A stretch of DNA of 36,985 bases, from the IMG/VR virus record IMGVR_UViG_3300046011_007285, positions 1 through 36,985 of that record, one strand, 5' to 3'. The notes beneath the pieces are model-generated. The model worked only from the letters and a program-made list of their open reading frames with translations, searched no databases and had not been told where the DNA came from. Positions 928 to 36,985 of this stretch are shown here, piece after piece. Position numbers and translations under genes: made by a program. This DNA comes from a virus. How positions within the stretch are numbered: position 1 is the first letter of the stretch; each line of letters begins with the position of its first letter.

Positions 928-928
928 T

Positions 929-2147: not shown

Positions 2148-2151
2148 TCTC

Positions 2152-2180: not shown

Positions 2181-2185
2181 TGACT

Positions 2186-9453: not shown

Positions 9454-9454
9454 A

Positions 9455-10084: not shown

Positions 10085-10090
10085 TTTAAA

Positions 10091-10696: not shown

Positions 10697-11439
10697 TACA
10701 TATATTCTATCGAGCTACAAGTTATCCAGAGGTAGGAAATAAATGTAGACCAAATTATTTTTCATTAGAGAAATGTTTTAAGAATTTTTTAGATACGCTA
10801 AATTTTAATAAAGCGAAATTAACAGTAGTTTTTGATGGGCCTATTAAAAATAGTTTTATTTTAAAATATAAAGACAAATATAAATTTGATATTCATTTAA
10901 TTAATGCTGGAACAGATTTTAAGTCAAATACTATGACTTTTCAATATATTAAAGAACAAAAATTAGCAGATAATGATATAATTTATGTCTTGGAACAAGA
11001 TTACCTTCATTTGCCTTGGGTTGACGCAGTTGAATTCTTATATCAAACAAATCCAAATTATAATATAAATAATTCTTATATATCCTTATATGATCACGGC
11101 GATAAATATACAAGAAATAATCCAGATATGAAGAATACAGAATGGGGCATGTACCATGATTTAAAATCACAAATCTATTTTACTCCTTATAGATATCTTA
11201 GAACTGTACCTAACACTTGCGGTTCCTTTATATTAAGCAAACAACTCTTCGACAAAGATTATGAAATTCATATTTCTGGTAAAGCGGATAACACAAGATT
11301 TCATATTTTAACCCAAGAACCTTATAATCGAATAGTTTTAAGTTTTATGCCTGGATTTTCTACTCATATGCACACGCATTTTCTATCACCATTTGCAGAT
11401 TGGGAAGAAGTAAACAAACAAACAATTTTATTACCATGA
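10693..11439 (+). CDS. Putative GT-A glycosyltransferase
   Basis: A 248-aa protein. A first strand, a Val-Val-Phe-Asp-Gly segment at 45-49, and Tyr-Val-Leu-Glu101-Gln-Asp103 in the DxD position resemble GT-A enzymes with an ExD motif. Conserved-looking His and Trp residues near the C-terminus (about 228-240) may complete the active site. It overlaps both neighbours by 4 nt in ATGA arrangements, so it is translationally coupled to the acyltransferase and to rmlB. No specific family was recognised; a transferase using the sugar made by its neighbours is an inference. Confidence 0.55.
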   Translation: MIHIFYRATSYPEVGNKCRPNYFSLEKCFKNFLDTLNFNKAKLTVVFDGPIKNSFILKYKDKYKFDIHLINAGTDFKSNTMTFQYIKEQKLADNDIIYVLEQDYLHLPWVDAVEFLYQTNPNYNINNSYISLYDHGDKYTRNNPDMKNTEWGMYHDLKSQIYFTPYRYLRTVPNTCGSFILSKQLFDKDYEIHISGKADNTRFHILTQEPYNRIVLSFMPGFSTHMHTHFLSPFADWEEVNKQTILLP

Positions 11440-12407
11440 ATATTTTAGTTACAGGAGGTTTAGGATTTATAGGATCTAATTTTATTAGAACTATAATTAA
11501 TAAGGATTCCATATCTTCTATAGTAAATATAGATTGTCCAAGTAAATTAAGCGCAGCTGCAAATATAAATAATGCAAAAGATTTTAAAGACAATCCAAAA
11601 TATCATTTTTATGATTTTTGGTTAGATCATCTAGAAGATCCTCAGACCTTTAAGAAATTTATTCAAGTGTTAAAAGATCATAAGATATCACATATAATAC
11701 ATTTCGCCGCAGAGACTCATGTTGACAATTCTATATCAAATCCTAGAGACTTTTTGAGATCTAATATAATTGGAACATTTAATCTTTTAGAATTATGTAA
11801 ACAAGAAAACTTAAGAATTCATTTAATTTCTACAGATGAAGTATACGGCAGTTTAGGACACGAAGGAAAATTTTCAGAAACTTCTTGCTATGCACCAAAT
11901 TCTCCTTATTCCGCTTCTAAAGCTTCAGCCGATATGCTCGCTAGAGCTTATTATCATACATTTAAAGTTCCTATAACAATATCTAATTGTTCTAATAATT
12001 ATGGCCCATATCAACATAATGAAAAATTTATACCTGTAGTTATAAATTCAATATTAAATAATCAAAAAATACCTGTTTATGGTACAGGAAAAAATATTAG
12101 AGACTGGATTTATGTAATAGATCATTGCGAAGCTGTATTTGAGATTGTTAAAAATGGAAAGATTGGCGAGACATATAATATTGGTGGAGATTGCGAAAAA
12201 ACTAATTTAGAAATTATATCTAACATCTGTAAAATATTACAAGTTAATCCAGAAGACTACATTAAATTTGTAGAAGATAGGAAAGGTCATGATTTTAGAT
12301 ACGCTATAGATAATACGAAGATTAATAAAGAATTGAATTGGTATCCTAGAACTGATTTTTTACATGGTTTAGAAAAAACTATAGAATTTTATAAAAATAA
12401 ATATTAG
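11436..12407 (+). CDS. rmlB: dTDP-glucose 4,6-dehydratase
   Basis: A 323-aa extended SDR that makes dTDP-4-keto-6-deoxyglucose. Motifs: Gly7-X2-Gly10-X2-Gly13 for NAD, Phe-Ala-Ala-Glu-Thr-His-Val-Asp at 90-97, the catalytic Thr133-Asp134-Glu135 diagnostic of this dehydratase, Tyr158-X3-Lys162, the Asn-Asn-Tyr-Gly-Pro substrate segment at about 189-193, and Gly-His-Asp-X-Arg-Tyr near the C-terminus. The ATG at 11436, in an ATGA overlap, is chosen because the longer in-frame TTG (11400) would extend into the previous gene and add residues before the NAD-binding strand. It supplies the common 4-keto intermediate for dTDP amino or deoxy sugars. Confidence 0.93.
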   Translation: MNILVTGGLGFIGSNFIRTIINKDSISSIVNIDCPSKLSAAANINNAKDFKDNPKYHFYDFWLDHLEDPQTFKKFIQVLKDHKISHIIHFAAETHVDNSISNPRDFLRSNIIGTFNLLELCKQENLRIHLISTDEVYGSLGHEGKFSETSCYAPNSPYSASKASADMLARAYYHTFKVPITISNCSNNYGPYQHNEKFIPVVINSILNNQKIPVYGTGKNIRDWIYVIDHCEAVFEIVKNGKIGETYNIGGDCEKTNLEIISNICKILQVNPEDYIKFVEDRKGHDFRYAIDNTKINKELNWYPRTDFLHGLEKTIEFYKNKY

Positions 12408-12416
12408 TATTATATA

Positions 12417-13469
12417 ATGAAAAAAGTTATTATTACCGGCGTTACAGGTCAAGATGGATCTTATATGGTAGATTATATATTAAATAACACAAATTATTTT
12501 GTTTATGGTGTTAGAAGAAGAAGTTCTAATCCCAATCTAGAGAATATACAACATAACTTAAATAATGAAAGATTTAAATTTATAATAGGAGATTTATCTG
12601 ATAGTAATTCTATAGATGAAATTGTAAAAGACATAAAGCCAGATTATTTTATTAATTTTGCGGCACAATCTTTCGTTGGTAGTAGCTGGCAAATTCCCTT
12701 ACAGACTTTTGATGCAACCGCACTTGGTGTGCTTAGATGTTTAGAAGCTATAAGAAAATATGCTCCTAATTGTAGATTTTATTCAGCGGGTTCTAGTGAA
12801 GAAATGGGCGATGTTTTATATAGCCCTCAAGACTTAAAACATCCAATTCGTCCTCGTAGCCCATATGGTGCAGCTAAAGCAGCCGCAAGACATATTACAA
12901 AGGTTTACAGAGATTCTTATAATCTTTTTGCAATACATTCTATTCTTTATAATCACGAAAGCGAAAGACGAGGGGAAGAATTTGTCACCAGAAAAATTAC
13001 AAAAGGTGTTGCTAGAATATATAATGCATTAAAAAATAATATAGATTTTGCTCCAATTGAACTAGGTAACTTAGATGCAAAAAGAGATTGGAGTCATGCT
13101 GAAGATTTTATTAATGGTATATGGTTAATGTTGAATCAAGATAAACCAAAAGAATATATCCTTTCCTCAGATGAAACGCATAGTATTAGAGAATTTGTTG
13201 AAAAAGCTTTTTTAGCTATTGATATAAAAGGATCATGGATCTATAATGGAGATGGAAGAGATGAAGATGAAGCATTTTATTTTAAAGATAATCAAGGAAA
13301 TTACAAACAGTTAGTAAAAATTAACCCTAAATTCTTTCGTCCTGCTGAAGTAGATCTCTTATTGGGTAATTCATCAGAGGCAAGAAATGAACTAAATTGG
13401 AAACCAAAAGTATCTTTTAATGAACTAGTTGAAAGAATGGTCAAATCAGATATACAGAACTATAAGTGA
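12417..13469 (+). CDS. gmd: GDP-mannose 4,6-dehydratase
   Basis: A 350-aa extended SDR converting GDP-mannose to GDP-4-keto-6-deoxymannose. It has the GMD-type start Gly8-Val-Thr-Gly-Gln-Asp-Gly14, the Arg-Arg-Arg-Ser-Ser cofactor-phosphate segment at 33-37, Ala-Ala-Gln-Ser at 82-85, Ser-Ser-Glu at 126-128, Tyr150-X3-Lys154, and the family-specific Asn-His-Glu-Ser-X-Arg-Arg-Gly-Glu and Leu-Gly-Asn-Leu-Asp-Ala stretches. Length is typical. The usual Thr of the catalytic Ser/Thr-Ser-Glu region is Ser here. Its product is the substrate of ColD, and a ColD-like enzyme lies at 3874, so the two may form one pathway. Confidence 0.92.
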   Translation: MKKVIITGVTGQDGSYMVDYILNNTNYFVYGVRRRSSNPNLENIQHNLNNERFKFIIGDLSDSNSIDEIVKDIKPDYFINFAAQSFVGSSWQIPLQTFDATALGVLRCLEAIRKYAPNCRFYSAGSSEEMGDVLYSPQDLKHPIRPRSPYGAAKAAARHITKVYRDSYNLFAIHSILYNHESERRGEEFVTRKITKGVARIYNALKNNIDFAPIELGNLDAKRDWSHAEDFINGIWLMLNQDKPKEYILSSDETHSIREFVEKAFLAIDIKGSWIYNGDGRDEDEAFYFKDNQGNYKQLVKINPKFFRPAEVDLLLGNSSEARNELNWKPKVSFNELVERMVKSDIQNYK

Positions 13470-14197
13470 AAAATATATTAATTTCTACAATTATTAGAAA
13501 TAGAAAAAATTTTTTACATAATTGGTACGAACAGATAAAAAGTATTGTAGCGCTTGATAAGCAAAACAATTATTATCTTTCTGTATACGAAAATGATTCA
13601 ACAGACGGAACACAAGATATATTAAAAAACTTAGATTTTTCTTTCTTTTCAGATTTTAATATAAAATTAGAAATATTAAATACTCCTTCTTTTGGTAGCG
13701 TAGTTAATGAAGAAAGAGTAAAACTTTTATCGGAAGCAAGAAATCAAACAATTTATAATAATAAATTACTAGAGAAATGTTCTCATATATTAGTTGTAGA
13801 ACCAGACGTAAAATATGAACCTAAAACATTAATAGATAATATTATAAATAATGGAGACTACGATATAATTTCCCCTAGAAGCGTAGAGATTAATGATGAC
13901 AAACATCATTATCTTTATGACGATTGGGGGACAAGACAGAATCCAGATTCTAGATCTTGGCATATTTTTAATCCTATTATTCTGAGAAATTTAGGTTTAA
14001 TAAATGTTTGGACAACATTTAACTGCTTCTGCTTCTATAAATCGGAACCTTTTAAAAGATTTTTGACGTTTGGATATTTCAATGAGAGATTTAATACATT
14101 TGATTGTGATACGGCAGTAGTTTGTGAAAACTTTAGAAAATATGGTTATTCAAATATTGTCTTAAATTCTTCAGTCGAAGTATATCATTCTAGATGA
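13466..14197 (+). CDS. Glycosyltransferase, CAP59/GT69-like
   Basis: A 243-aa protein with a GTG start in a GTGA overlap with gmd. Tyr-Glu-Asn-Asp-Ser-Thr-Asp-Gly-Thr at 41-49 and Val-Val-Glu112-Pro-Asp114 at about 110-114 (an ExD variant of the metal motif) resemble CAP59/CMT1-type mannosyltransferases (GT69) known from fungi and found in some bacteria and phages. An Asp-Trp-Gly-Thr-Arg segment at about 151-155 fits the acceptor side. It is the last gene of the first glycan operon: the next promoter starts 5 nt after its stop. The GT69 link is recalled from motifs and is moderate at best. Confidence 0.65.
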   Translation: MKNILISTIIRNRKNFLHNWYEQIKSIVALDKQNNYYLSVYENDSTDGTQDILKNLDFSFFSDFNIKLEILNTPSFGSVVNEERVKLLSEARNQTIYNNKLLEKCSHILVVEPDVKYEPKTLIDNIINNGDYDIISPRSVEINDDKHHYLYDDWGTRQNPDSRSWHIFNPIILRNLGLINVWTTFNCFCFYKSEPFKRFLTFGYFNERFNTFDCDTAVVCENFRKYGYSNIVLNSSVEVYHSR

Positions 14198-24651: not shown

Positions 24652-25194
24652 ATGATATCATTTTATAAACCAAATAGTAAAAATACAGGTACGGCTTGTA
24701 GTTTTAGCGTAAATTCAAAAGAAGGCTCAATCTGGAGTTCTTTAATTAAACAGAGTTCTTGGAATGAAGCCACGAAAACTGGTTCGTTCTCTGATAATAG
24801 AGATAATCCTCAAAAAAGTGCTAGAGTTAAATTCTCTCAAACAGAGGTCGCTGGCTTACTTGAAGCTCTTGATAAAAATGTAGAATTTTCTGCTTATCAT
24901 TCTTCTGATAAACAAATTACAAAAATTAAATTTTCACCTTATATTAAAGATAATAAACAAGTCGGCTTCTCTTATAGTGTTAATAAGGAAAGTAAAGAAA
25001 ATATAGAGAATAAACAATCATTTTTGCTTGGCTTCTATTTTAGCGAAGCTAGACTACTAAGAGAGTTCTTGGTTCATTCTTTACATTCAATATTTAAAGC
25101 TCAAGAAGTTGAAGCAATTAAAAAATTTAAAAACTCAAAATCATCTCAAGAATCAAATAAATCTAACGCCGAAGAAGATGGCGAACTTTGGTAA
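24652..25194 (+). CDS. Candidate single-stranded DNA-binding protein
   Basis: A 180-aa protein. The first 145 residues look like an all-beta/alpha domain with alternating polar strands (Ser-Phe-Ser-Val, Ala-Arg-Val-Lys-Phe-Ser) and a C-terminal helix carrying Phe-Leu-Val-His. A low-complexity Ser/Asn/Lys linker then leads to a short acidic tail, Glu-Glu-Asp-Gly-Glu-Leu-Trp, ending in an aromatic residue, as in phage ssDNA-binding proteins of the T7 gp2.5 kind. Its own strong promoter directly after the polymerase suits a highly expressed SSB. Fold and binding are inferred; no motif is diagnostic. Confidence 0.5.
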   Translation: MISFYKPNSKNTGTACSFSVNSKEGSIWSSLIKQSSWNEATKTGSFSDNRDNPQKSARVKFSQTEVAGLLEALDKNVEFSAYHSSDKQITKIKFSPYIKDNKQVGFSYSVNKESKENIENKQSFLLGFYFSEARLLREFLVHSLHSIFKAQEVEAIKKFKNSKSSQESNKSNAEEDGELW

Positions 25195-25196
25195 TT

Positions 25197-27125
25197 GTGT
25201 CTCGCAAGAAGAAAATAGTCTATCAATCTGATTTCTCTCTTGCCAAAACTGGTTTTGGTAGAGCAGCAAAAGCTCTTTTAACTTTCTTATATAAAACTGG
25301 AAAGTATGATATAGTACATTATTGTTGCGGATTGCAATATTCAAATCCAGAACTTAAAAAGACTCCTTGGAAGTCCATAGGTTCATTGCCAGATAATCCA
25401 CAAGAAATAGAACAATTAAATAAAGATCCAAATATAGCTAGACTAGCAAGTTATGGCTCGCATTATCTGGATAGAGTTATTCAAGAAGAGAAGCCTGATG
25501 TTTATATAGCTGTTCAAGATATTTGGGGTATAGATTTTGCTATTGATAAAAAATGGTTTAATAAGATTTCTTCGGTATTATGGACTACTTTAGATTCTTT
25601 ACCGATTCTTCCTTCTGCGGTTGAAAAAGCTCCAAAAATCAAAAATTATTGGATATGGAGTGATTTCGCTACAAAAGCATTACATGAACTTGGGCATAAA
25701 CATGTAAAAACTTTACATGGACCTCTTGATGTTTCTAATTTTTACAGATTAGAAAATTACAGAAGAGAAGAGATTAGGAAAAAATATAATATCCCCTTAG
25801 ATTCTTTTATTATAGGATTTGTATTTAGAAACCAACTTAGAAAAAGTGTCCCCAATCTTTTAGAAGGATATTCCTTATGGAAAAGATCTAACCCTCAAAT
25901 TAAAAATACTTTTTTACTTTTACATACTCATTGGAGTGAGGGATGGAACATACCTAAATTATCAAAAGAATATGGAATTGATCCAAGAGAAATCTTAACA
26001 ACCTATATTTGTAAAAAATGTGGCGAGTATGAAATTAAAAATTTTCATGGACAAGATGTAGACTGTAGATTTTGTAAGAGTGAAAAAAGTCAAGTAACTA
26101 CTAATGTAGGGATAGGAGTAACAGAAGAACAATTAAATGAGGTCTACAATCTAATGGATGTATATTGTCATCCATTTACAAGTGGAGGTCAAGAGATACC
26201 AATTCAAGAAGCAAAACTCACAGAGTTAATTACATTGGTAACAAATTATTCTTGCGGAGAGGAAATGTGTCAAGAATCAGCTGGGTCTTTTGAATTAGAA
26301 TGGAGTGAATATAGAGAGCATGGAACAGAATTTATAAAAGCTTCTACCAAACCTAATTCTATAGCTAAACAAATAAATAAAGTCTATAATATGTCCATTC
26401 TAAAAAGAAGAGAAATGGGAATAAAAGCTAGAGAATGGACTATACAAAATTATGCAGTTGAAAACATAGCAAAAGAGATTGAAAAGTTTATAGATCAATC
26501 AGAATACACAACTTACGACTTCTCTCTCAAGGAAGAAGATAAAGATCCATTTCATCAAATTCCAGAGATAAAAAATGATAGTGAATGGATAACTTATATG
26601 TATCATAATCTTTTAAAGATGAAAGATATTAATGGAGATGATGATGGACATAAATATTGGATGACAGAGATTTCAAAAGGAGCAAAAAGACAAGACATAG
26701 AAAATTATTTTAGAAATGTTGCCGCACAAGAGAATCAAAAGAATAAAAAAATAGATTTTTCAGATCTTTTAGATAAAGATGACGAAGGAAGAAGGATTAT
26801 ATATGTAATGCCCGAGAGTATTGGAGATATATATATTTCAACTTCTTTGTTTGAAAATATTAAAAAACAATATCCTAATCATAATCTATATGTAGCAACA
26901 AAGCCCGAATATTTTGAAATACTCGAAGGAAATCCTCACATACATAAATTATTACAATTTATACCTCAGATGAATCAACTGCTATGGCTAGAAGGAGCTG
27001 GAGAACATAAAGGATACTTTGAAGTCGCCTTTCTTCCTCATGCAGGAACACAATTATTTTTAGATTATATACATAATGGTAAGACTAATATACAATTCAA
27101 TATAAAGGATGAAATATGCACTTAA
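25197..27125 (+). CDS. GT4-zinc ribbon-DUF4214-like-GT9 N-half fusion
   Basis: A 642-aa multidomain protein from GTG 25197 (a TTG at 25188 would overlap the previous stop). Residues 1-435 are a GT-B, GT4-like transferase, with Gly-Gly-Gln-Glu-Ile-Pro-Ile-Gln-Glu (330-338) as an E-rich donor site. An inserted zinc ribbon has Cys272-X2-Cys275 and Cys290-X2-Cys293. Residues about 461-505 resemble DUF4214 (Tyr-His-Asn-Leu-Leu, then Tyr-Trp-Met). From 531 a Rossmann domain (Ser-Ile-Gly-Asp at 541-544) looks like the N-terminal half of a GT9 heptosyltransferase, and the chain stops there. The C-terminal half is encoded by the next gene, which overlaps by 10 nt. Confidence 0.7.
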   Translation: MSRKKKIVYQSDFSLAKTGFGRAAKALLTFLYKTGKYDIVHYCCGLQYSNPELKKTPWKSIGSLPDNPQEIEQLNKDPNIARLASYGSHYLDRVIQEEKPDVYIAVQDIWGIDFAIDKKWFNKISSVLWTTLDSLPILPSAVEKAPKIKNYWIWSDFATKALHELGHKHVKTLHGPLDVSNFYRLENYRREEIRKKYNIPLDSFIIGFVFRNQLRKSVPNLLEGYSLWKRSNPQIKNTFLLLHTHWSEGWNIPKLSKEYGIDPREILTTYICKKCGEYEIKNFHGQDVDCRFCKSEKSQVTTNVGIGVTEEQLNEVYNLMDVYCHPFTSGGQEIPIQEAKLTELITLVTNYSCGEEMCQESAGSFELEWSEYREHGTEFIKASTKPNSIAKQINKVYNMSILKRREMGIKAREWTIQNYAVENIAKEIEKFIDQSEYTTYDFSLKEEDKDPFHQIPEIKNDSEWITYMYHNLLKMKDINGDDDGHKYWMTEISKGAKRQDIENYFRNVAAQENQKNKKIDFSDLLDKDDEGRRIIYVMPESIGDIYISTSLFENIKKQYPNHNLYVATKPEYFEILEGNPHIHKLLQFIPQMNQLLWLEGAGEHKGYFEVAFLPHAGTQLFLDYIHNGKTNIQFNIKDEICT

Positions 27126-28255
27126 TTGAAAGATATGCAACTTCTTGCGGAGTAAAGATAGGAAAGCCCTATATTTACGAAACATTTTTCCCTATACCTG
27201 TTGAAAAATACATATCTTTTCAACCTTTTAGTAAATATCAATCAAAAAATTATGATTATTGGGATGAAGTCATCGCAATGATTTCTCCGTATTTAAATGA
27301 ACAAAATATAAAAATTATACAAATTGGCGCAAAAGACGATAAACATATTAATGGAACAATTAATCTATCTGGACAAACAAAGATATCTCAAGCCGCTTAT
27401 ATAGTTAATAACTCAATTTTGCATTTGGGCGCAGATAGTTTTGCGGCTCATATTGCTTCAGGCTTTAATAAGAAGATAGTATGCATCTATTCAAATAATA
27501 ATATTAATAATGTAAAACCTTATTGGTCAAAATCACAGGACTTAGTATTATTAAAACCAAATACAGATAAGAAACCTCAATACTCTGCTAATGAATTCCC
27601 AAAAAGTATAAATAATATTAAACCAGAAGAAATAGCCAAAGGAGTTTTAGACTTACTAAATATAACATATAAAAAGACTCCCAAGACTATCTATATTGGA
27701 GATGATTACAAATCAAAAACATTTGAAATTATTCCAGATAAACCAATTAATATTTCTTCAATTAATATAGAGACATTTATTATTAGAATGGATTATCATT
27801 TTGATGAACAAGTTTTGGAATATTACTTACAGAATAGAAAATGTATTATTATTACGAATAAACCTATTAATGAGAATCTCTTAAAACAATATAAGAATAA
27901 TATAGTACAATTCGTTTATTTGGTTGAGAATGATAACGATTCAAAATTTATTAAGATTCTAAAGAATAACACTATAAATACAGTTTATATGTCATATCTT
28001 AATGAGGATGAATTAAATCAATTTAAATTAGACTATATGGATTATGGTTTAATTATAAGAAGAGATTATCCTAAAGATCATATAAATTTTGCAGATAATA
28101 TTTATTTCAAATCTTCTAGAATTATTTTATCTTCAGAAGGGCAATTTAATACTAAATATCAATGGTTAACCAAAGACTTATCAAATAAATATATAGAGAA
28201 TAAAGAACTACAAAAAGAATTAAATAATCTTTATATCTTTTCTCTTGACCAGTAA
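27116..28255 (+). CDS. GT9 C-terminal half plus unknown domain
   Basis: A 379-aa protein in a different frame from its upstream neighbour, starting at an ATG within a 10-nt overlap, with AAGGA 6 nt upstream. Residues about 80-130 resemble the GT9 C-terminal nucleotide-binding domain (Ile-Gln-Ile-Gly-Ala, Ile-Leu-His-Leu-Gly-Ala-Asp-Ser-Phe-Ala-Ala-His). Together with the preceding protein this completes a heptosyltransferase fold, so the two products may assemble. Residues about 200-379 form a second alpha/beta region, possibly a radical-SAM-free Rossmann-like domain, that I do not recognise. A true split, or a frameshift in an originally single gene, are both possible. Confidence 0.6.
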   Translation: MHLIERYATSCGVKIGKPYIYETFFPIPVEKYISFQPFSKYQSKNYDYWDEVIAMISPYLNEQNIKIIQIGAKDDKHINGTINLSGQTKISQAAYIVNNSILHLGADSFAAHIASGFNKKIVCIYSNNNINNVKPYWSKSQDLVLLKPNTDKKPQYSANEFPKSINNIKPEEIAKGVLDLLNITYKKTPKTIYIGDDYKSKTFEIIPDKPINISSINIETFIIRMDYHFDEQVLEYYLQNRKCIIITNKPINENLLKQYKNNIVQFVYLVENDNDSKFIKILKNNTINTVYMSYLNEDELNQFKLDYMDYGLIIRRDYPKDHINFADNIYFKSSRIILSSEGQFNTKYQWLTKDLSNKYIENKELQKELNNLYIFSLDQ

Positions 28256-28273
28256 TAAAAATTACAGTATCAT
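28245..28273 (+). promoter_or_regulatory. Sigma70-like promoter, leaderless start
   Basis: The -35 is TTGACC (28245-28250), the spacer 17 bp and the -10 TATCAT (28268-28273), the same -10 as the helicase promoter. The ATG at 28281 is 7 nt further. The -35 overlaps the end of the upstream gene, and its TTG is an in-frame false start. Confidence 0.72.
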
Positions 28274-28280
28274 TATTAAA

Positions 28281-29084
28281 ATGAGCCCAAAAATTAAAGA
28301 AAATCAAGAGACTATTACGATAGGTAGTTCAGAGTTAAATAACATTGATATACTAAGTGAGCCAAGTAAAGCTATAGAAGAGGTTCAGATTCCACCAAAA
28401 ATAATTACCAGAAATAAATATGGTTTGTTAGAGAATAAAAATATAAATTATATCTATAATGAAGATGGTTCTATTAATTGGCGTAAGATGGTAAAGACAG
28501 AGTATCTTGTTCCAAATCGTCAAAAGACACAAGAAACAGATGTATCAAAATTAGAAGATAAAGACCTATTAATTCTATTAGGTGGTATTAAAGAATTAGC
28601 TCAAATTAGAGGTTATTCAAAGGTTGAATACAAAGTAGTTACCGCTTCTGAGAATTATTTTGCCACAAGCTGTAGAATTACTTGGATGCCAAACTATGAA
28701 ACCGATGGCAGAGAAATTATCTTCGAGGCTCTGGCTGATGCGACATCTAGTAATACAAAATCTTTCGCTCGCTTCTTTCTTGCAGCAATAGCTGAGAACA
28801 GAGCTTTTGTTCGTTGTGTACGTAACTTCTTAAAAATTAATATCGTTTCTCAAGAGGAACTAGGAGACGCTAAACTCCTTGATGAATCTCCCTCCGTACA
28901 GGAGAATCCAACTTCTCCTCATGTTTTACTAGAGAAAGTCATGAAAGAAAAAGGAATTTCTTTTGACCAATTAAAAAAGAAATTAATTAAAGAAAAATTT
29001 GAAAATGCAGAAAATATTAATAATATATCAGATATATCGAAGAGCAAAATCTTTGAACTTATTGAAAGGATAAAGAATGTATGA
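28281..29084 (+). CDS. Possible single-strand annealing protein
   Basis: A 267-aa protein. The N-terminal 60 residues look flexible. A central alpha/beta domain (about 80-180) contains Gly-Tyr-Ser-Lys-Val-Glu-Tyr-Lys-Val and then Ala-Glu-Asn-Arg-Ala-Phe-Val-Arg-Cys-Val-Arg-Asn-Phe-Leu. That last pattern resembles the Ala-Glu-Thr-Arg-Ala-(Phe)-Arg motif seen in some phage annealing proteins of Rad52/Erf/RecT-like groups. The C-terminal 50 residues have an acidic region and then a charged helical segment. It has its own promoter and lies near replication genes. The functional guess is weak; it could be another phage core protein. Confidence 0.4.
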   Translation: MSPKIKENQETITIGSSELNNIDILSEPSKAIEEVQIPPKIITRNKYGLLENKNINYIYNEDGSINWRKMVKTEYLVPNRQKTQETDVSKLEDKDLLILLGGIKELAQIRGYSKVEYKVVTASENYFATSCRITWMPNYETDGREIIFEALADATSSNTKSFARFFLAAIAENRAFVRCVRNFLKINIVSQEELGDAKLLDESPSVQENPTSPHVLLEKVMKEKGISFDQLKKKLIKEKFENAENINNISDISKSKIFELIERIKNV

Positions 29085-29239
29085 ATAAAGAAGATCAAGA
29101 ATCAAGTTACACTTTCTCTTTAACTCTAAAAGAAGTAGAGGCTCTATTTAAATATCTATCTCGTACAGAGTTAAAAGGAGTTGAAGTACCAGAATTTAAT
29201 AATATCTTGAATATCTTTAAGATAAAGAAAGATGATTAA
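29081..29239 (+). CDS. Small 52-aa acidic protein
   Basis: A short ORF with ATGA overlap to the preceding gene, ending in an 8-nt overlap with the next. An AAGGA lies about 12 nt before its ATG. The protein has a Thr-Phe-Ser-Leu-Thr-Leu strand (11-16), an amphipathic helix with Glu-Val-Glu-Ala-Leu-Phe-Lys-Tyr-Leu, and an acidic, Lys-rich end. Small proteins of this layout are common in phage operons. Function unknown; the couplings at both ends are the evidence that it is translated. Confidence 0.6.
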   Translation: MNKEDQESSYTFSLTLKEVEALFKYLSRTELKGVEVPEFNNILNIFKIKKDD

Positions 29240-30080
29240 TAAAATTTTATCTTTTTTTAAAAAAGATGATCCAGAGATAGAATTCTATTCTATAATTCCT
29301 GGCTTAGAAGAAGTAAGTCAACCAATTAAAGCCTTTCACGACGAGAATCCTTCTTGGCTAAAGAATAGATTAGAAAAAACCAAGATCTATATTGACGATT
29401 TTCACGATAACAAGAATTTAAATCCAAAAGGTAATACTTTCTTTGTTGAAAAATGTCCTGGCATTAGATCTATAATGAACGAGGGAATTCATTTAAAAAC
29501 TTGGCAAGATATAAGAGTTACCTTAATATCAAATGATGATGATGGTAAATTTCTTATAGAAACTCCTACTCCAGCTGGAAATCTTAAAAATGGACAATTT
29601 ATAAATCCAGAAGTTCAATCTCATAATGGTAATCAATTTCCAGAATTTGCGAGAAGTAGAGAAGATACATGGCCGCATTTATTAAAAATTATGTCTAATT
29701 GGAGAGTGAATATGAATAAAGATTGGCAATTAATGTTATTACCAGTATATTATTCTAATACTTCTAATTTATTCTCAGCTGTTCCAGGAATATTTAATCC
29801 AGAATTTGGAAGTCATCTTAATATAAATATACAAATTCATAGAAAAGCTCCGTTCTCCTTCTTAATTCCGGCTGGAACATCTATAGTTAAAATGATTCCT
29901 ATAAAGAAAAATAATAATTTTAATTTTAATGTAAGGAAAGTAACAGATAACGATATTTTTAAAGAAGAGGCGACTTTGGCTTTATTAAAGAAGAGATATA
30001 TATCTTCTAGGAAAGATCAAATAAACGATCTAAATAAATTAAGAAGTTCCATATCAAAATGTCCATTCTTTCATAAATGA
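29232..30080 (+). CDS. DUF6065-like phage protein
   Basis: A 282-aa protein of a type seen in marine and freshwater phage genomes, which I recall as DUF6065-like. Conserved-looking features are Cys-Pro-Gly-Ile (about 75-78), an Asn-Glu-Gly followed by a Thr-Trp-Gln-Asp segment (82-93), Val-Tyr-Tyr (about 173-175) and an Ala-Gly-Thr-Ser (about 214-217) before an Ile-Pro-Ile strand, giving a mostly beta fold. The enzymatic role is unknown. It lies between small phage genes and a glycosyltransferase, and is coupled to both by overlaps of 8 and 4 nt. Confidence 0.5.
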   Translation: MINKILSFFKKDDPEIEFYSIIPGLEEVSQPIKAFHDENPSWLKNRLEKTKIYIDDFHDNKNLNPKGNTFFVEKCPGIRSIMNEGIHLKTWQDIRVTLISNDDDGKFLIETPTPAGNLKNGQFINPEVQSHNGNQFPEFARSREDTWPHLLKIMSNWRVNMNKDWQLMLLPVYYSNTSNLFSAVPGIFNPEFGSHLNINIQIHRKAPFSFLIPAGTSIVKMIPIKKNNNFNFNVRKVTDNDIFKEEATLALLKKRYISSRKDQINDLNKLRSSISKCPFFHK

Positions 30081-30811
30081 AAACGGCAATAGTAACTTAT
30101 TATTGGTTCGAGCCTTCATATAAAGAAGCTTTTGAAAAAGTTGTTGTGCCACGTTTGAATTTTTTAGCTAACAAATGGAATGCAGAATTAATTATTGAAA
30201 ATAGAATAGATAAAAATTTAAAAAATGAAGATTGGCCAGAAAATTACGAATTAAATCAATATAATAAGTCCTTAATACTAAAAAATATAATAGGAAAATT
30301 TGATAAAACTTTATGTATAGATGCTGATATGGTAGTGTCCAGAAAAATTCCTAATATTTTTGAGATATATGAAGATGGATATTTCTATGCGGTTTTAGAC
30401 GGAGCAGCTGGAGATGAATATTGCTTTCATAGAGTAGATGAAATGATTAGCTCTCAAGCAATGTTAGGCAGTATAAATTGGACTTATGGTTATTATAATG
30501 CAGGATTTATGATGATGGAAAAAGAGCATAAAGTTATCTTTGATGACGAAAATTATAAAATATTTTTTAATTTTTCTGATCAAACAAAAATTAATTATCT
30601 TTTAAGAAAATATAAAATACCTCATCGCGCATTACCTAAACAATATAACTCAATGGCTATAAATTGCATTCGTTCTAAACTATCTCCGAGAGTTGTAAAT
30701 CTAGTTCCACCAGATATACTTTCTAAAGATGTATACGTAGCTCACGCTGCCGCAATTCCTAAAGAAATAAAGAACGACTATATCTTTAGACTAGATACAT
30801 TGATGGAATAA
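30077..30811 (+). CDS. GT8-like glycosyltransferase
   Basis: A 244-aa GT-A enzyme. Leu-Cys-Ile-Asp82-Ala-Asp84-Met is a standard DxD, and Tyr-Tyr-Asn-Ala-Gly-Phe-Met-Met (about 137-144) plus Asp-Gln-Thr-Lys-Ile (about 168-172) match GT8 motifs for donor and acceptor binding. A His near the C-terminus (about 228) may be the family's metal ligand. It forms an ATGA overlap with the upstream gene and a 1-nt overlap (TAATG) with the following heptosyltransferase. It may extend the first sugar added by the TibC/Aah-like pair, but that is inference. Confidence 0.8.
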   Translation: MKTAIVTYYWFEPSYKEAFEKVVVPRLNFLANKWNAELIIENRIDKNLKNEDWPENYELNQYNKSLILKNIIGKFDKTLCIDADMVVSRKIPNIFEIYEDGYFYAVLDGAAGDEYCFHRVDEMISSQAMLGSINWTYGYYNAGFMMMEKEHKVIFDDENYKIFFNFSDQTKINYLLRKYKIPHRALPKQYNSMAINCIRSKLSPRVVNLVPPDILSKDVYVAHAAAIPKEIKNDYIFRLDTLME

Positions 30812-31794
30812 TGAATAAAGAAAATATTTTTTTTAATGGTTCTATTTTGGGTCTAGGCGATTCTATAGCGGTAATGCCTTTGATAGAAATATACGCAAAT
30901 ATAAATAAAAATAAAAAAGTTTTTTTTTCAAATAAATTTTACTACCTTTTTTATAAAGAATATAAAAATATATTTTTCTTAAAGGATGATCAAGATTTTT
31001 TTACAAAAAATAATGATTTATTCTTAGTTTACGATGATAACGTATATTCATTAAATGAAATGTATAATCTAGCTTATACAACCACCTATCTCAAGAAAGA
31101 AAATAATAAAATTATTAAAAAAGAATTAAAAAATAAAAGACTTCCACTTCAAGCACAAATGGCGGATTTTTTAGATTTAGAGATCACAGAGGAGATTAAA
31201 CCAAAAATTTCATTTAATCCTCAACCAATTTTTATGGATAAGATGGGCGTAAATGGATACGTATGCATAGCTACACAGACAACGGTACAAGGTAAATATT
31301 GGAATAATACTACTGGATGGAAAAATATAATAGATTTTCTAAATATAAAAGGATATTCAGTTATATGCGTAGATCAGCATAGAAACTATGGAAACTTAGT
31401 ATACTATAATAGTATACCAAATAATTGTATAGATTTCACTGGTTTGCCATTAAAAGATTTAGTTAATATAATATATAATTGTAGTTTTTTCATAGGTTTA
31501 GATTCAGGTCTTTCTTGGTTAGCGTGGGCACTAGATAAGAAGGTTATACAGATTTTAGGTTTAACAGGAAGAAGGATTGCTTTTAAAAATCCTTATTCAA
31601 TATTAAATAAGGATGTTTGTAATTCTTGTTTTGAAGACAAATCAATAACTGGATTCTCTACAGATAACCCATTTAATGATTTCTTAATGTGTCCAAGGCA
31701 TAAAAATACCAAAAGAATGTTCGAGTGTACAAAAAAAATAAATTCTAATATGGTTATCGAAGTTATAAACCAAGTAATAAAATCAAATGAATAA
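30811..31794 (+). CDS. TibC/Aah-like heptosyltransferase (first copy)
   Basis: A 327-aa protein of the bacterial autotransporter heptosyltransferase type (GT9-related). The N-terminal half has Leu-Gly-Asp-Ser-Ile (15-19) and Leu-Pro-Leu-Gln-Ala-Gln-Met-Ala-Asp119, whose Asp aligns with the general base of TibC. The C-terminal half has Gly-Lys-Tyr-Trp-Asn (161-165), Phe-Phe-Ile-Gly-Leu-Asp-Ser-Gly-Leu-Ser (226-235), and the four metal-site cysteines Cys270, Cys273, Cys294 and Cys306. The Phe-Ser-Asp-Pro-Lys segment of TibC is changed here to Leu-Thr-Gly-Arg-Arg (251-255). It is about 20 residues longer than the next copy. Confidence 0.8.
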   Translation: MNKENIFFNGSILGLGDSIAVMPLIEIYANINKNKKVFFSNKFYYLFYKEYKNIFFLKDDQDFFTKNNDLFLVYDDNVYSLNEMYNLAYTTTYLKKENNKIIKKELKNKRLPLQAQMADFLDLEITEEIKPKISFNPQPIFMDKMGVNGYVCIATQTTVQGKYWNNTTGWKNIIDFLNIKGYSVICVDQHRNYGNLVYYNSIPNNCIDFTGLPLKDLVNIIYNCSFFIGLDSGLSWLAWALDKKVIQILGLTGRRIAFKNPYSILNKDVCNSCFEDKSITGFSTDNPFNDFLMCPRHKNTKRMFECTKKINSNMVIEVINQVIKSNE

Positions 31795-32665
31795 CATTTT
31801 AATAAAATTTTTAAGTAATTGTCTAGGAGACTCTCTAGCTTGGATGCCTATGGTTGAAGAATATAGAAAATTAAGTAACGCTAATATTTTTTGTATAAAT
31901 GAATATTATAAAATATTTAATTACCCAAATATTAATTTTATAAATTCGACTCAAATACAAGATTTTAATTTTAATAAAATTTATGAATTAGGATTTTTTA
32001 TAGAAGATCTAAAATTTAAAGAATTAAATCTAAAAGATCCGAGATCTTTAAATTTACAAGAAGTAGCTTGTGATATACTAAGAATTCCATATAGATCAAT
32101 TAAACCTAATCTATTAATAAGAGATACAAAAAATCAAGAAAATCAAAAATATGTATGCATATCAGTTCAGAGTACAAATCAAGCTAAATACTGGAATTAT
32201 CCAAATGGATGGGAAATTATTACAGACTATTTAAATAGATTAGACTATAAAGTAATATGCATAGATAAATATTCATCTTATGGCAATTTAGTATATATTA
32301 ATAATATACCTAGAAATGCAGTAGATAAAACTGGAAATATAAATATTCAAGAAAGAATAACGGATATTTATAATTGTGAATTTTTTATTGGCCTACCATC
32401 TGGTCTCTCTTGGTTAGCTTGGGCTTTAAATAAAAAAGTTATATTAATTAGTGGATTTAGTGATCCTAAAACAGAATTTTATACACCATATAGAATCATC
32501 AATAAAAATGTGTGCAATAGTTGTTGGAATGATGAGAATTTTATTTTTTCATATAAAGATTTTATATATTGTCCTAGACATAAAAATACAGATAAAATGT
32601 TCGAATGTACAAAACAAATACATCCAAATATAATTATTGAAAATATAAATAAATTACTTAACTAA
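31787..32665 (+). CDS. TibC/Aah-like heptosyltransferase (second copy)
   Basis: A 292-aa paralogue of the preceding gene and the closer match to TibC. It keeps Gly14-Asp15-Ser, Leu-Gln-Glu-Val-Ala-Cys-Asp96 (catalytic Asp position), Ala-Lys-Tyr-Trp-Asn (133-137), Gly-Leu-Ser-Trp-Leu-Ala-Trp (206-212), and Phe-Ser-Asp-Pro-Lys-Thr-Glu-Phe (224-231). The metal cysteines are Cys243, Cys246, Cys262 and Cys274, the last in Phe-Glu-Cys-Thr. Known relatives transfer heptose from ADP-heptose to Ser on repetitive adhesins. The 8-nt overlap with the first copy indicates co-expression, and a hetero-oligomer is possible. Its 3' end overlaps the opposing tail-fibre gene by 12 nt. Confidence 0.88.
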   Translation: MNNILIKFLSNCLGDSLAWMPMVEEYRKLSNANIFCINEYYKIFNYPNINFINSTQIQDFNFNKIYELGFFIEDLKFKELNLKDPRSLNLQEVACDILRIPYRSIKPNLLIRDTKNQENQKYVCISVQSTNQAKYWNYPNGWEIITDYLNRLDYKVICIDKYSSYGNLVYINNIPRNAVDKTGNINIQERITDIYNCEFFIGLPSGLSWLAWALNKKVILISGFSDPKTEFYTPYRIINKNVCNSCWNDENFIFSYKDFIYCPRHKNTDKMFECTKQIHPNIIIENINKLLN

Positions 32666-34531
32666 AAATGTTTTTGATGTAGTAGTACCGCCAACGCAAA
32701 CACTAATTGCTAGTTCAGTAAATCCTACAACTCCTGCTGAACGATTTGAATAACTTGCATATGAAGAATTTGTTGCAAATGCAGAATTCGATGCGGTTCC
32801 TGCATATCCCGCATTTGTTGATGAGGTTGCGTTTGTCGCAAAGGCTGCGTTGGTAGCAGTCCCTGCGTATCCAGCGTTGGTTGCGTAAGATGAATTCGTC
32901 GCGAATGCTGCGTTGGTAGCGGTTCCTGCGTATCCAGCGTTGGTTGCGTAAGATGAATTCGTCGCGAAAGCTGCGTTTGTAGCGGTTCCAGCGTATCCCG
33001 CAGCAAGTGCATATGAAGAGGGTCCACCAGGGGAACTTAAAGCGTAACTTGCAGTAGTAGAAAATTGAGCATTTGTTGCCGTTCCAGCATATCCAGCATT
33101 TGTTGCAAATGTCGAATTCGTCGCGAATGCTGCGTTTGTAGCGGTTCCAGCGTATCCCGCATTTGTTGCAAATGTCGAATTCGTCGCGAATGCCGCGTTG
33201 GTAGCAGTCCCTGCGTATCCAGCGTTGGTTGCGTAAGATGAATTCGTCGCGAATGCTGCGTTGGTAGCGGTTCCTGCGTATCCAGCGTTGGTTGCGTAAG
33301 ATGAATTCGTCGCGAAAGCTGCGTTGGTAGCGGTTCCTGCGTATCCAGCGTTGGTTGCGTAAGATGAACTTCCGGCAGAACTTAAAGAATATGAAGATGT
33401 AGTTGCAAATGCTGCGTCAGTAGCTGTTCCAGCATATCCGGCATTTGTAGCGTAAGATGAATTTGTGGCAAAGGCTGCGTTAGTAGCTGTTCCAGCATAC
33501 CCAGCGTTGGTTGAACTATTTGCAAATGCCGCAAACTGAGAGTTAGTAGCTGTTCCTGCGTATCCAGCGTTGGTTGCGTAAGATGAATTCGTCGCGAAAG
33601 CTGCGTCTGTAGCGGTTCCTGCGTATCCAGCGTTTACTGCATAAGACGAGGCTGAAGAGAAGTCAGAAAAAGCTGCATTTGTAGCTGTTCCCGCATAACC
33701 AGCAGAGATAGCGTATGTACCTCCTGGACTAGATAATGCATAGCTTGCGGTAGTGGCAAATTGTGCATTTGTGGCAGTACCGGCGTATCCTGCGTTGGCC
33801 GCATACGAAGTACCACCCGCAGCAGTTAAAGCATAAGAGGCTGTATCAGCATTATTAGCAAAAATAGCAATACCAGCATTATTTGCAGTTCCAGCATAAG
33901 CAGCGTAAGATGATCTAGTTGCATCTGCAGTTACTAATGAGTAAGAGCTATCTCTTGCAATCTCAGAATAAAAAGAATAAGTTGCATAAGAAGCTTGGGC
34001 TGCATTATTAGCTGAGCTCGCATTTGATGCAATTAATGCAAATCTAACACCAAGATTTGGCAAATAACTATCTCCATTCGCATTTGAAGCCACATATATT
34101 GGATTATTTGTTGTTCCCCAATTTCTTAAATATACATTTGTATTCGCTACAATATCAGCAGAATCTAATTCTATTATTTTATTATTAACTGTATCTTGTA
34201 TACTTAACAAAGAAGCTGAATTATTAGTTTTAAGTAATGAAAAAGTATTTTGACTTTTTGTATATACATTCATTGAGTTTCCATCTGTATATATTTGAGT
34301 ATATAAATTTGGAAATTCTGCTGGCCTAAAAGTTATACCGGCATTATTTAAAAAAGATTCAAAATAAGGAGATGAACTTGATGTATGTCTTATTGAATTT
34401 AATTGTAATACGTTTGAACAGTAATCATTATAAAATTGATTTGTTCCAAATTTTAAATCTCTAGTTCTTGGATCTAAACAGTCTGCTCCTAGTAATTTAT
34501 TTCCGTAATCTGGTTTAATTTGAGCTGCCAT
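32654..34531 (-). CDS. Repetitive tail-fibre-like protein
   Basis: A 625-aa protein. The N-terminal 160 residues (a Tyr-, Asn- and Asp-containing head with Cys18 and Cys38) are followed by an Ala/Ser/Thr/Asn-rich region of about 400 residues. That region holds fifteen copies of an Ala-Gly-Tyr-Ala-Gly-Thr-Ala core, most of them on a 21-residue period. Within one period the motif Asn-X-X-(Tyr/Phe)-Ala recurs with spacings 9, 6 and 6. The last 30 residues form a distinct end after Ser-Ala-Gly-Val-Val-Gly. Such Ser/Thr-rich repeats suit elongated trimeric fibres. It starts 1 nt after the preceding stop with AAGG upstream, so both fibre genes are one operon. Tail origin is inferred from composition. 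Confidence 0.7.
   Translation of the reverse strand: MAAQIKPDYGNKLLGADCLDPRTRDLKFGTNQFYNDYCSNVLQLNSIRHTSSSSPYFESFLNNAGITFRPAEFPNLYTQIYTDGNSMNVYTKSQNTFSLLKTNNSASLLSIQDTVNNKIIELDSADIVANTNVYLRNWGTTNNPIYVASNANGDSYLPNLGVRFALIASNASSANNAAQASYATYSFYSEIARDSSYSLVTADATRSSYAAYAGTANNAGIAIFANNADTASYALTAAGGTSYAANAGYAGTATNAQFATTASYALSSPGGTYAISAGYAGTATNAAFSDFSSASSYAVNAGYAGTATDAAFATNSSYATNAGYAGTATNSQFAAFANSSTNAGYAGTATNAAFATNSSYATNAGYAGTATDAAFATTSSYSLSSAGSSSYATNAGYAGTATNAAFATNSSYATNAGYAGTATNAAFATNSSYATNAGYAGTATNAAFATNSTFATNAGYAGTATNAAFATNSTFATNAGYAGTATNAQFSTTASYALSSPGGPSSYALAAGYAGTATNAAFATNSSYATNAGYAGTATNAAFATNSSYATNAGYAGTATNAAFATNATSSTNAGYAGTASNSAFATNSSYASYSNRSAGVVGFTELAISVCVGGTTTSKTFLVK
32770..33800 (-). repeat. 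63-bp tandem repeats inside the fibre gene
   Basis: The coding repeats are visible at DNA level as 63-bp units on the plus strand, nearly identical in blocks near 32865-32990, 33200-33365 and 33555-33620, with short spacers carrying Ser-Pro-Gly-Gly-type breaks. The block is richer in G and C than its surroundings. Units are directly adjacent and stay in frame, so this is a coding tandem repeat and not a CRISPR array. Confidence 0.85.
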
Positions 34532-34532
34532 T

Positions 34533-36985
34533 TTACCTTATACCTGTTATTATAGTATTAATTACACTGTTTGTATATTTTCCAGTTTCATAACCACTTA
34601 CTATTAATAGACCACTTATAATATCATTACTAAAATAATTTCTTGTTTTTGCTTGAATATATAGTTGACTTACATCATTAGAGATAAAACCAGAGTTAAT
34701 ATAAGAATTATTTAATATATAATTATTTAATTTAAAGTCTTGAAGACCTGTTAGAGTTCCATTTAAATAATATCCCGTAATTAAATTAAATGCATCAGTA
34801 AATGTTTTATTATATCTTTGTCCAGTTAATAAACCTGTTAATAGATAATTATTCTCATTTAGTTGTATAACTCCAGAACCAGTAAGGTATCCAATAAATC
34901 CAGTTTGATTTATATTTGATACTACCTGCACATATCCAGTATTTGAAAAATAATCCGAGAAGAATAAAAGATCAGCATATTCATTATTAATAAATTCTAA
35001 ACCAGATTTTAAATTTAAATTAGAATTACCATTTATAATAACTTCATCAATAGTTCTTAGTTTTACCCATTGCTGTTTGTTATCTCCGCTGCCTGTATAT
35101 AAATGTATTGCCCCACTTATATTTGGATATGTTATTGGATCTGTGTTGTAAGATGCTACTGCTAAAAGATCACCTAAATCATTTAATTTTAAAACATGCC
35201 CAAATTCAGTTGGCGCATTTACTGTTCCGCTAATAAATGAATTCTGAAACCATTGATTATTTAAGTTTCCTGTAAATATGTATATTGCTCCTCTTGAAGA
35301 AGAATATCCTGGCGCACCAATTGCGGCAATATTGCCTAGTTTATTTAGAGATGTAGAATATCCAAATAAATCTCCATTCTGACCATTTGTTCTATTTAAT
35401 ATTGATACTAATTCATAGTTAGCATTATAACTTCCTGTAAAAATATAAGCATAACCACTAGATGGCGCGTTTATTGCTCCAATTAATAAATTATTTCCAT
35501 TGTTATTTATAGAAATAGATTGACTAAAATTATGACTACTATTTGATATCTGCCCGACGATTCTCTGAGTTTCATTAAAGCCTGTTAGTAAAATATTTCT
35601 ATAAAAATTAAGTGCACCACCATTTAAAGTAATAGTACTATTCCGTGGTTCACCAACTACAAGTGCATTTCCAGACTGTAAAATCTTCGAGCGAGATCCA
35701 AATTGAGCATTAGTATTTCTACCTTTTATTTTATCAAAAAATTTAAAATTATTTGGTGCACCAGTATAGATATATACTGCACCAGCTAGTGAAACATCAT
35801 CAGAATTTCGAACCGCTCCAACGGAAAGAATATTTCCACTATCATTTAAAGATACTGAAATACCAAAATAATCTGCCACATTTTCCCCAGTAAAGATATC
35901 TGTTTGAATCCAATTATTTCCACTTCCTGTATAGATATATGCATATCCAGGGTTATTAAAATTATTACTTCCAATAGCGATAATATCTCCTTTTTTATTT
36001 ATATCAACTGCAGTACCAAAGTATGACAACGCGGAGGGTGGTAAAATTTTCGCTCCAGTATTCCAAATAAAATTATCTCCAGTTATTATCCATACCGCTC
36101 CAGCATCAGAGCCTACTTGTCTATCTAAAGGAGAGCCTACAACAGCTATATTTCCACTGCTATTTAACGCAACTGACCGACCCATAGCGCTATTAATCGT
36201 ATTTCCCGTGATTTTTGGCTCTATTTTAGACCAAATAATACCACTACCAGTTATAAACCATACTGCACCAACATTAGAATTATCATTAGAAGCTCCAACT
36301 AATCCTATATTACCATAATCATTTATAGCTACACTTGTCCCAAATTGATCAGTTCCACCATCTCCTGTTAGTCTTGCGCCTGTTGCCCACGTAATTCCAT
36401 TTCCAGTTAAGATAAAAACTTGACCAGCAAAATTAGTAGCCCCTTCTTGATGGGAGGAAGCACCGATTAAACCTAAATAACCATTCCCATTTAAAGCTAC
36501 GCTAGCTCCAAAATTATCAACGCCTATTCTATCGCCATATATTTTTATACTTTTTTCATAAAAATTACCATCACCAGTCAATATCCAAACTCCTCCATTT
36601 AACGAAAAGAAAGTGCTATTATTTGGAATACCAGCTAAAATAACTTTTTCATCTCTACTTACGCTTATTGATGTTCCAAGAGCGTCTGCTCCAGGATCAG
36701 AATATATTATATTAGTTCGTGAATATCCGCTAATATTTTCAGATTTATAAACAAAAGCTGCTCCAGTTCCACCATCTGCATAATTTGCGCCAATTATTAA
36801 TATATTTCCAGAATTTATCGCTAAACTATTTCCAAAGTTTCCACTTTTTTCAAAATACTCCGCATCAATAATATTCTGAGTATAATCTATAAATCTATAA
36901 ACTCTTCCAGAAATTCCTGTGTTATTTAATAGAGATCCTCTTTTTGACGTAATAAAGATTTCATCTCCTCTTCTATCTATTATTC
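34533..36985 (-). CDS. FG-GAP beta-propeller protein, 5' end outside window
   Basis: The reading frame is open from the stop at 34533-34535 to the right edge, giving at least 816 residues. The in-frame TTG at 36581 is not a credible start, because the upstream codons continue the same repeats. About eleven FG-GAP-like units are visible (Phe-Gly-X-Ser-Val-X-Leu-Asn-X-X-Gly-Asn, then a hydrophobic strand and Gly-Ala, then Gly-Ala-Val-X-Ile-X-Thr-Gly-X-Gly), as in integrin-like propellers. The last 200 residues change to Leu-Thr-Gly-rich sequence. The Asp-X-Asp calcium loops of classic integrins are mostly Asn or Ser here. It is probably a virion surface or receptor-binding protein. Confidence 0.8.
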   Translation of the reverse strand, partial: IIDRRGDEIFITSKRGSLLNNTGISGRVYRFIDYTQNIIDAEYFEKSGNFGNSLAINSGNILIIGANYADGGTGAAFVYKSENISGYSRTNIIYSDPGADALGTSISVSRDEKVILAGIPNNSTFFSLNGGVWILTGDGNFYEKSIKIYGDRIGVDNFGASVALNGNGYLGLIGASSHQEGATNFAGQVFILTGNGITWATGARLTGDGGTDQFGTSVAINDYGNIGLVGASNDNSNVGAVWFITGSGIIWSKIEPKITGNTINSAMGRSVALNSSGNIAVVGSPLDRQVGSDAGAVWIITGDNFIWNTGAKILPPSALSYFGTAVDINKKGDIIAIGSNNFNNPGYAYIYTGSGNNWIQTDIFTGENVADYFGISVSLNDSGNILSVGAVRNSDDVSLAGAVYIYTGAPNNFKFFDKIKGRNTNAQFGSRSKILQSGNALVVGEPRNSTITLNGGALNFYRNILLTGFNETQRIVGQISNSSHNFSQSISINNNGNNLLIGAINAPSSGYAYIFTGSYNANYELVSILNRTNGQNGDLFGYSTSLNKLGNIAAIGAPGYSSSRGAIYIFTGNLNNQWFQNSFISGTVNAPTEFGHVLKLNDLGDLLAVASYNTDPITYPNISGAIHLYTGSGDNKQQWVKLRTIDEVIINGNSNLNLKSGLEFINNEYADLLFFSDYFSNTGYVQVVSNINQTGFIGYLTGSGVIQLNENNYLLTGLLTGQRYNKTFTDAFNLITGYYLNGTLTGLQDFKLNNYILNNSYINSGFISNDVSQLYIQAKTRNYFSNDIISGLLIVSGYETGKYTNSVINTIITGIR

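Follow-up and report, generated by a model that had tools for sequence, protein, structure and literature searches.

Known protein heptosylation systems and the present locus

The closest described relatives of the locus analyzed here are the bacterial systems TibC/TibA and Aah/AIDA-I, in which a heptosyltransferase of the TibC/Aah (BAHT) family modifies an autotransporter; curated models exist both for the enzymes (TIGR04414, hepto_Aah_TibC) and for the strand-loop-strand repeat that is the target of heptosylation (TIGR04415). TibC modifies serine, not threonine, its Pro300 selects ADP-D,D-heptose, and its activity is abolished or largely diminished when Arg286 is lost (PMC4358343). In the IMG/VR virus record IMGVR_UViG_3300046011_007285, whose full length of 36,985 bases we refer to as the window, two adjacent genes of this family, g5 and g6, converge on a gene for a repetitive tail-fibre-like protein. 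A sequence-only reading of this DNA had suggested that the enzymes glycosylate the fibre. Our analysis points in the same direction: the phage probably carries a barrel-less form of the bacterial heptosylation system that acts on its own fibre. What the analysis shows is the family to which both enzymes belong, their active-site residues, the order of the genes, the return of the module in other phages and the statistical association of the family with fibre and tail genes. The three genes at its center are:

30811..31794, plus strand: g5, TibC/Aah-type transferase, barrel-less, 327 aa (TIGR04414, 210.4 bits; PDB match to TibC, E 3e-47; residue mapping)
31787..32665, plus strand: g6, TibC/Aah-type transferase, barrel-less, 292 aa (TIGR04414, 300.7 bits; PDB match to TibC, E 2e-61; residue mapping)
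32654..34531, minus strand: tail-fibre-like protein, 625 aa, the proposed acceptor (repeats; homologue of the head in the tail module of a relative)

The open reading frames (ORFs) of g5 and g6 share 8 bases, and the fibre ORF and the end of g6 overlap by 12 bases, stop against stop, which bears out the tail-to-tail arrangement described earlier.

Two transferases of the TibC/Aah family

Both proteins exceed the curated whole-protein cut-off of TIGR04414 (200 bits; hmmscan against NCBIfam), and the sole PDB match of either in phmmer searches is TibC (4RAP/4RB4). Their scores against the lipopolysaccharide (LPS) heptosyltransferase models of NCBIfam lie far under the cut-offs of those models. 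We mapped the residues of g5 and g6 to the TibC positions named in PMC4358343. Catalytic Asp110, which is invariant across 111 phage and 74 bacterial-type aligned domains, is kept in both, as are all four iron-finger cysteines (339, 342, 358 and 370 in TibC numbering) and the donor-site residues Thr226, Lys230 and Trp305. g6 also keeps Arg286, the adenine contact, and Pro300, so that every donor-binding residue is present. At the hydrophobic beta-hairpin thumb of TibC, Phe265-Val266, both proteins have the hydrophobic segment GNLVY, in a loop where the alignment is uncertain. The TIGR04414 match of g5 and g6 begins at profile position 84-89 of 374, and the ORFs leave no room upstream. The two proteins thus start where the TibC catalytic domain starts and therefore lack the N-terminal beta-barrel, for which reason we class them as a barrel-less variant and not as TibC orthologues.

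In a quick tree with many weakly supported branches, the window enzymes group with those of a related contig, L012 (IMGVR_3300000736_000153), among phage sequences and outside the main bacterial Aah/TibC clade; g5 and g6 branch apart before the window and L012 split, with g5 on the longer branch. Judged by profile scores and mapped residues, then, g5 and g6 are members of the TibC/Aah family in a barrel-less form. This agrees with the earlier assignment of two adjacent genes with the TibC-type cysteine set and catalytic aspartate to TibC/Aah. Their description as a transferase pair needs qualification: both belong to the family, but they are not equivalent, as g5 lacks Arg286 and Pro300, and neither has the beta-barrel.

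A tail fibre with 21-residue repeats

The proposed acceptor consists of a head (residues ~1-160), a shaft of 21-residue repeats (~215-590) and a conserved C-terminal tip. The shaft has 15 repeat starts, with 10 spacings of exactly 21 residues and the consensus AGYAGTATNAAFATNSSYATN; the self-identity of the fibre is 0.54 at lag 21 versus ~0.1 at lags not divisible by 3. Within the 21-mer there is a strong 3-residue period (A-x-x), with alanine at most first positions. The repeat length given by the sequence-only reading is thereby confirmed, and its description of the repeats as rich in Ser, Thr and Asn is corrected by this inner period and by a shaft composition of 14% Ser and 15% Thr. Serine is clustered in one segment of the repeat (NSSY), threonine lies mainly elsewhere, and the extra residues of the longer repeats fall in the Ser-rich second half, an observation that is independent of any structural model. 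Tandem Repeats Finder detected 63-base arrays in the gene, which are diverged at the codon level and therefore are not an assembly stutter.

The tip is common to L012 and the head to another relative, L326, and the syntenic position of the fibre in relatives is occupied by lambda J-like and minor tail proteins. Profile searches detected no autotransporter domains. From its place in the tail/host-recognition module and its conserved head and tip, the protein is assigned as a putative phage tail fibre. A match to Plasmodium HRP was dismissed as a low-complexity artefact.

AlphaFold2 was run with three sequences in the alignment. Its best model is a solenoid with one coil per 21 residues and a predicted local distance difference test (pLDDT) score of about 80-90 over most of the shaft. 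In this model 35 of 41 serines lie in loops versus 16 of 55 threonines, in line with the preference of TibC for serine. Structure comparison placed Ag43, Vag8 and the TibC-glycosylated TibA (4Q1Q, Z 15.5) among many beta-helices that matched the model; a comparison with a viral structure library gave nothing convincing.

The module in related phages

The enzymes and the fibre have the following neighbors:

28245..29084, plus strand: conserved gene 28245, left edge of the variable tail module (present in 48 of 48 near relatives)
29232..30080, plus strand: phrog_7084 protein, conserved module member (phrog_7084 match; copies in L012 and L016)
30077..30811, plus strand: GT8-like glycosyltransferase (PF01501, 30.9 bits; cut-off 24.3)
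34533..36983, minus strand: FG-GAP repeat protein, open at the window end (PF14312)

The genes for the phrog_7084 protein, the GT8-like protein, g5 and g6 follow one another in that order on the plus strand and face two minus-strand genes, that of the fibre and, immediately upstream of it, that of the FG-GAP protein. The latter protein likely has a role in the tail or in adhesion; its homologues adjoin other fibre genes in relatives. An AlphaFold2 model of the phrog_7084 protein (pLDDT 32) gave no usable fold.

The whole module recurs in L012: all its genes follow the order seen in the window, its fibre is built of the same repeats, and the identities are 72% for g6, 55% for g5, 61% for the GT8-like protein and 71% for the phrog_7084 protein. 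The search for the same gene pair beside a repetitive fibre, which the earlier reading had called for, thus found it. A second contig, L016 (IMGVR_3300045421_000607), has one enzyme (43% identical to g6), the phrog_7084 protein (45%) and, in convergent orientation as in the window, the end of an A-x-x fibre; g5 and the GT8-like gene are absent from it.

A scan for ThyX, planned as a random-gene control, returned the window's own lineage only and was therefore used for syntenic comparison. It yielded 48 near relatives, contigs whose ThyX is about 79-98% identical. Strong transferase matches are absent in 47 of these 48, the L012 contig being the exception; weak matches to the BAHT profile (E 2e-11 to 3e-4) are partial and were not counted as enzyme. 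A homologous fibre head occurs in the L012 contig and in one other near relative, at 31% identity (G013/L326), a contig without the enzymes and without 21-mer repeats. We opened the region beyond gene 28245 in 20 relatives other than the L012 contig; transferases, GT8 and phrog_7084 genes are absent from all of them, and most hold other tail genes there, some of them lambda J-like. From the comparison of the 48 relatives, L326 among them, we conclude that the enzymes and the repetitive shaft are gained and lost together. The DnaE matches of the window phage in the phage collection are ~30% identical, and no close isolate was found among them.

To the right of the gene 28245 homologue, loci L309-L328 make up a hypervariable tail module in one phage lineage, in which lambda J-like, TPTPTP, PSPSPS, GATGATG and FG-GAP proteins swap at the same boundary.

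The left part of the window (67-14197) is a dense sugar island with genes for GT4, DegT aminotransferases, an epimerase, an FkbM methyltransferase, a hexapeptide acetyltransferase and GDP-mannose and dTDP-glucose dehydratase-like proteins. Two ORFs with a 10-base overlap, 25188-27125 and 27116-28255, each encode one part of a split GT9 heptosyltransferase-like domain; the N-lobe ends the first ORF, after GT4 and DUF4214-like parts, and the C-lobe starts the second. This split is kept in L012, and in L016 without the overlap.

TibC/Aah-type enzymes in other phages

Scanning IMG/VR with a profile confirmed at least 593 relatives of the TibC/Aah family, and four INPHARED records carry it, including the isolate Microcystis phage Mel-JY01 and megaphage genomes. 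The 91 loci first analyzed formed 46 clusters at 70% identity and were compared with 49 control loci around GDP-mannose dehydratase genes. Of the 46 clusters, 12 have a triplet-repeat fibre no more than 8 kb away, versus 1 of 49 controls (p 7e-4, Fisher), and 9 versus 0 have one within 5 kb; a sheath, terminase or portal gene is present in the locus in 17 clusters versus 0 controls (p 7e-7, Fisher); these p-values are rough, as clusters are not fully independent, some controls are from the window's lineage and contigs are truncated. Phage homologues of the enzymes are therefore found beside fibres, the point on which the sequence-only reading had said that it could fail.

Many copies of the family are fused to GT4, GT9 or FkbM domains, as if suited to building and capping a glycan. 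Twelve phage domain rows without the cysteine set resemble ordinary GT9 domains in fused proteins and are not to be counted as BAHT. In one locus (L011:8939-12598), surrounded by genes for capsid and fibre proteins, a single ORF of 1,219 aa combines a GT9 domain with two TibC-type domains and an FkbM methyltransferase. Mel-JY01 (PP395634, L020) has a fused TibC-type member, annotated as methyltransferase FkbM, between fibre-like genes. On its plus strand, opposite annotated minus-strand hypothetical genes, lies a long GTSGTSGSSG repeat ORF (L020:2-3052); the annotation probably follows the wrong strand there. In LR756504.1, GmhA, the first enzyme of ADP-heptose synthesis, is encoded at 430182-430640 (L392), ~27 kb from a TibC-type gene.

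In three phage-like loci, L077, L091 and L098, the enzyme directly follows a protein whose TIGR04415 repeats score 70-138 bits (cut-off 30), and a protein of L089 passes this cut-off too. By these profile matches, the enzyme and its known acceptor type do occur paired in phage-like loci. The L077 locus has tail genes, and that of L091 has an integrase and a reverse transcriptase. The L077 and L091 enzymes fall inside the main bacterial Aah/TibC clade in the quick tree. Two scored enzymes of this set of three reach 520-562 bits, match from the N-terminal domain on and fall with bacterial sequences. The prophage-like segment L091:11164-14726 places a variable lectin-like protein (Hoc-like family match), the reverse transcriptase and the integrase beside the strand-loop-strand protein and the heptosyltransferase; this is probably a diversity-generating retroelement next to a fibre that is glycosylated.

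Proposed modification of the fibre and alternative explanations

In the mechanism that we propose, the locus would be a phage-borne protein O-glycosylation module. A sugar, most likely heptose from host ADP-heptose, would be moved by g6, probably with g5, onto serines in the shaft-repeat loops of the convergent fibre, inside the infected cell and ahead of virion assembly. g5 may assist or add another sugar, and the GT8-like protein would possibly extend the glycan. Fibre and enzymes would travel as one exchangeable host-recognition cassette, and the benefit, at a guess, would lie in masking or stiffening the fibre or in its binding to the receptor. The self-glycosylation proposal of the sequence-only reading is strengthened by the recurrence of the module, the enrichment of fibre and tail genes and the TIGR04415 pairing, whereas the transfer, ADP-heptose as the donor and the fibre as the acceptor are what we infer.

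Several observations weigh against this explanation. The N-terminal beta-barrel (TibC residues 1-97; Pfam TibC_1st) is missing from g5 and g6, neither of which matches PF21129, and removal of the first 80 or 95 residues inactivates TibC (PMC4358343). Arg286 is replaced by Leu in g5, which we therefore class as a BAHT-like variant only; Pro300 is replaced by Asp. The fibre has no match in NCBIfam at E up to 1, TIGR04415 (cut-off 30 bits) included. With no such match in the fibre and no barrel of the kind that TibC needs in the enzymes, the analogy drawn earlier with the AIDA-I repeats is weaker than it had implied. The evidence from the fold of the fibre and its loops is weak, because AlphaFold2 is known to give false confident beta-solenoids for repeats (PMC11795689), four of the five models have a mean pLDDT below 49, with one fairly confident, and beta-helices all match one another in structure comparison. 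GATGATG triplet fibres occur without the enzyme in L310, L311 and L314; a repetitive fibre therefore does not require the enzyme, and the link is not universal. Many phage copies of the enzyme belong to clusters of sugar genes, and no fibre is evident near these copies. Finally, heptose-pathway genes are present in few phage contigs with the enzyme: gmhA is above the cut-off in one enzyme-bearing phage record only (LR756504, 636 kb) and rfaE-II has sub-cut-off matches in two contigs, so a phage-encoded donor supply is not general.

The pair might instead glycosylate another structural protein, either the FG-GAP protein at 34533-36983 or a head or tail protein beyond the window, and the fibre would then be a mere neighbor. 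The FG-GAP homologues do belong to the same tail operon, and in other phages the neighbors of the enzyme include not only fibres but also sheath, terminase or Hoc-like genes. However, FG-GAP homologues are also found in relatives that have no enzyme (L310, L311, L314, L318 and L326) and so do not track with it, whereas the repeat-bearing fibre does (window, L012, L016), and we regard another target as unlikely. Slightly more remote, in our judgment, is that the enzymes act on the envelope of the host, on its LPS core, its O-antigen or an adhesin, for superinfection exclusion or receptor change, as with other phage glycosyltransferase genes. The abundance of sugar genes in the window (GT4, the GT9 halves, DegT aminotransferases, epimerases, GDP-mannose dehydratase, FkbM) would suit such a role, and the GT9 relatives are LPS heptosyltransferases. 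Yet the iron-finger cysteines and the TIGR04414 match separate g5 and g6 from the LPS enzymes of GT9, and it is with the fibre that the enzymes are gained and lost, next to a constant gene order on their left. It is very improbable that the two genes were merely carried along, without activity, in a sugar-gene island of bacterial origin that the phage had captured: the missing beta-barrel and the loss of Arg286 from g5 could be read this way, but the frames are open, the active-site residues are conserved between two phages at 55-72% identity, and in the tree the two proteins are placed with phage sequences and not in the main bacterial clade.

A further possibility refines fibre modification rather than denying it. 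g6 may be the enzyme and g5 a non-catalytic or altered-donor partner in a mixed ring. Both g5 and its L012 orthologue have lost Arg286 (Leu and Val, respectively) and have Asp in place of Pro300, with the rest kept; the pair, which split before the window and L012 diverged, is kept in both, with g5 on the longer branch; and two TibC-type domains are joined in one protein in L011. On the other hand, g5 retains the catalytic Asp, Lys230, Trp305 and all cysteines, and L016 has a single copy. We hold this division of labor to be quite possible, though not the safer bet.

More broadly, glycosylation of the fibre here may be one case of many. A large and largely unannotated phage branch of TibC/Aah, often fused to other glycosyltransferases or FkbM, would glycosylate triplet-repeat or strand-loop-strand fibres; phages would commonly carry their own O-glycosylation, here in a barrel-less two-subunit form with split roles (heptose transfer by g6, an altered donor site in g5) that moves with the fibre as a cassette. 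We put the chances of this wider picture at just short of even.

Comparison with described systems

The kind of enzyme is known; its phage-borne, barrel-less, paired form, convergent with a fibre outside TIGR04415, is new. No description of TibC/Aah enzymes in phages was found in the open-access literature, subscription journals being outside that search. If the proposal is true, hundreds of uncultured phages would themselves encode the glycosylation of fibres, which would change how fibre-receptor binding, fibre stability and host range are read from sequence; it would also add to the mycobacteriophage cases another way in which virions are modified, and a class of BAHT acceptors outside autotransporters.

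Mycobacteriophage virions are glycosylated by phage glycosyltransferases. The present case is similar in that phage-encoded enzymes are thought to decorate their own virion; in contrast, the mycobacteriophage enzymes belong to other families, with no TibC-type enzyme among them. For phage Maravista, where virion glycosylation has been suggested, the capsid was named as the target (PMC11256854). The GT9 LPS heptosyltransferases WaaC, WaaF and WaaQ share the GT-B superfamily with g5 and g6 and give weak profile matches, but they have no iron finger, and their acceptor is the LPS core. L077, L091 and L098 resemble the window in having a phage-encoded BAHT enzyme beside a repetitive tail-like protein; unlike in the window, both enzyme and repeat are of the classic bacterial type, and the enzyme is full-length. 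The closest parallel is with TibC/TibA and Aah/AIDA-I (TIGR04414; PMC4358343), with which the locus shares the catalytic domain, Asp110, Lys230, Trp305, the four-cysteine iron finger and an enzyme gene that adjoins the gene of a repetitive surface protein with Ser-bearing segments. It differs from TibC and Aah in having two enzyme genes, no N-terminal beta-barrel and an altered donor site in g5, and from TibA and AIDA-I in that the partner is a phage fibre in convergent order, with 21-residue A-x-x repeats and with neither an autotransporter barrel nor TIGR04415.

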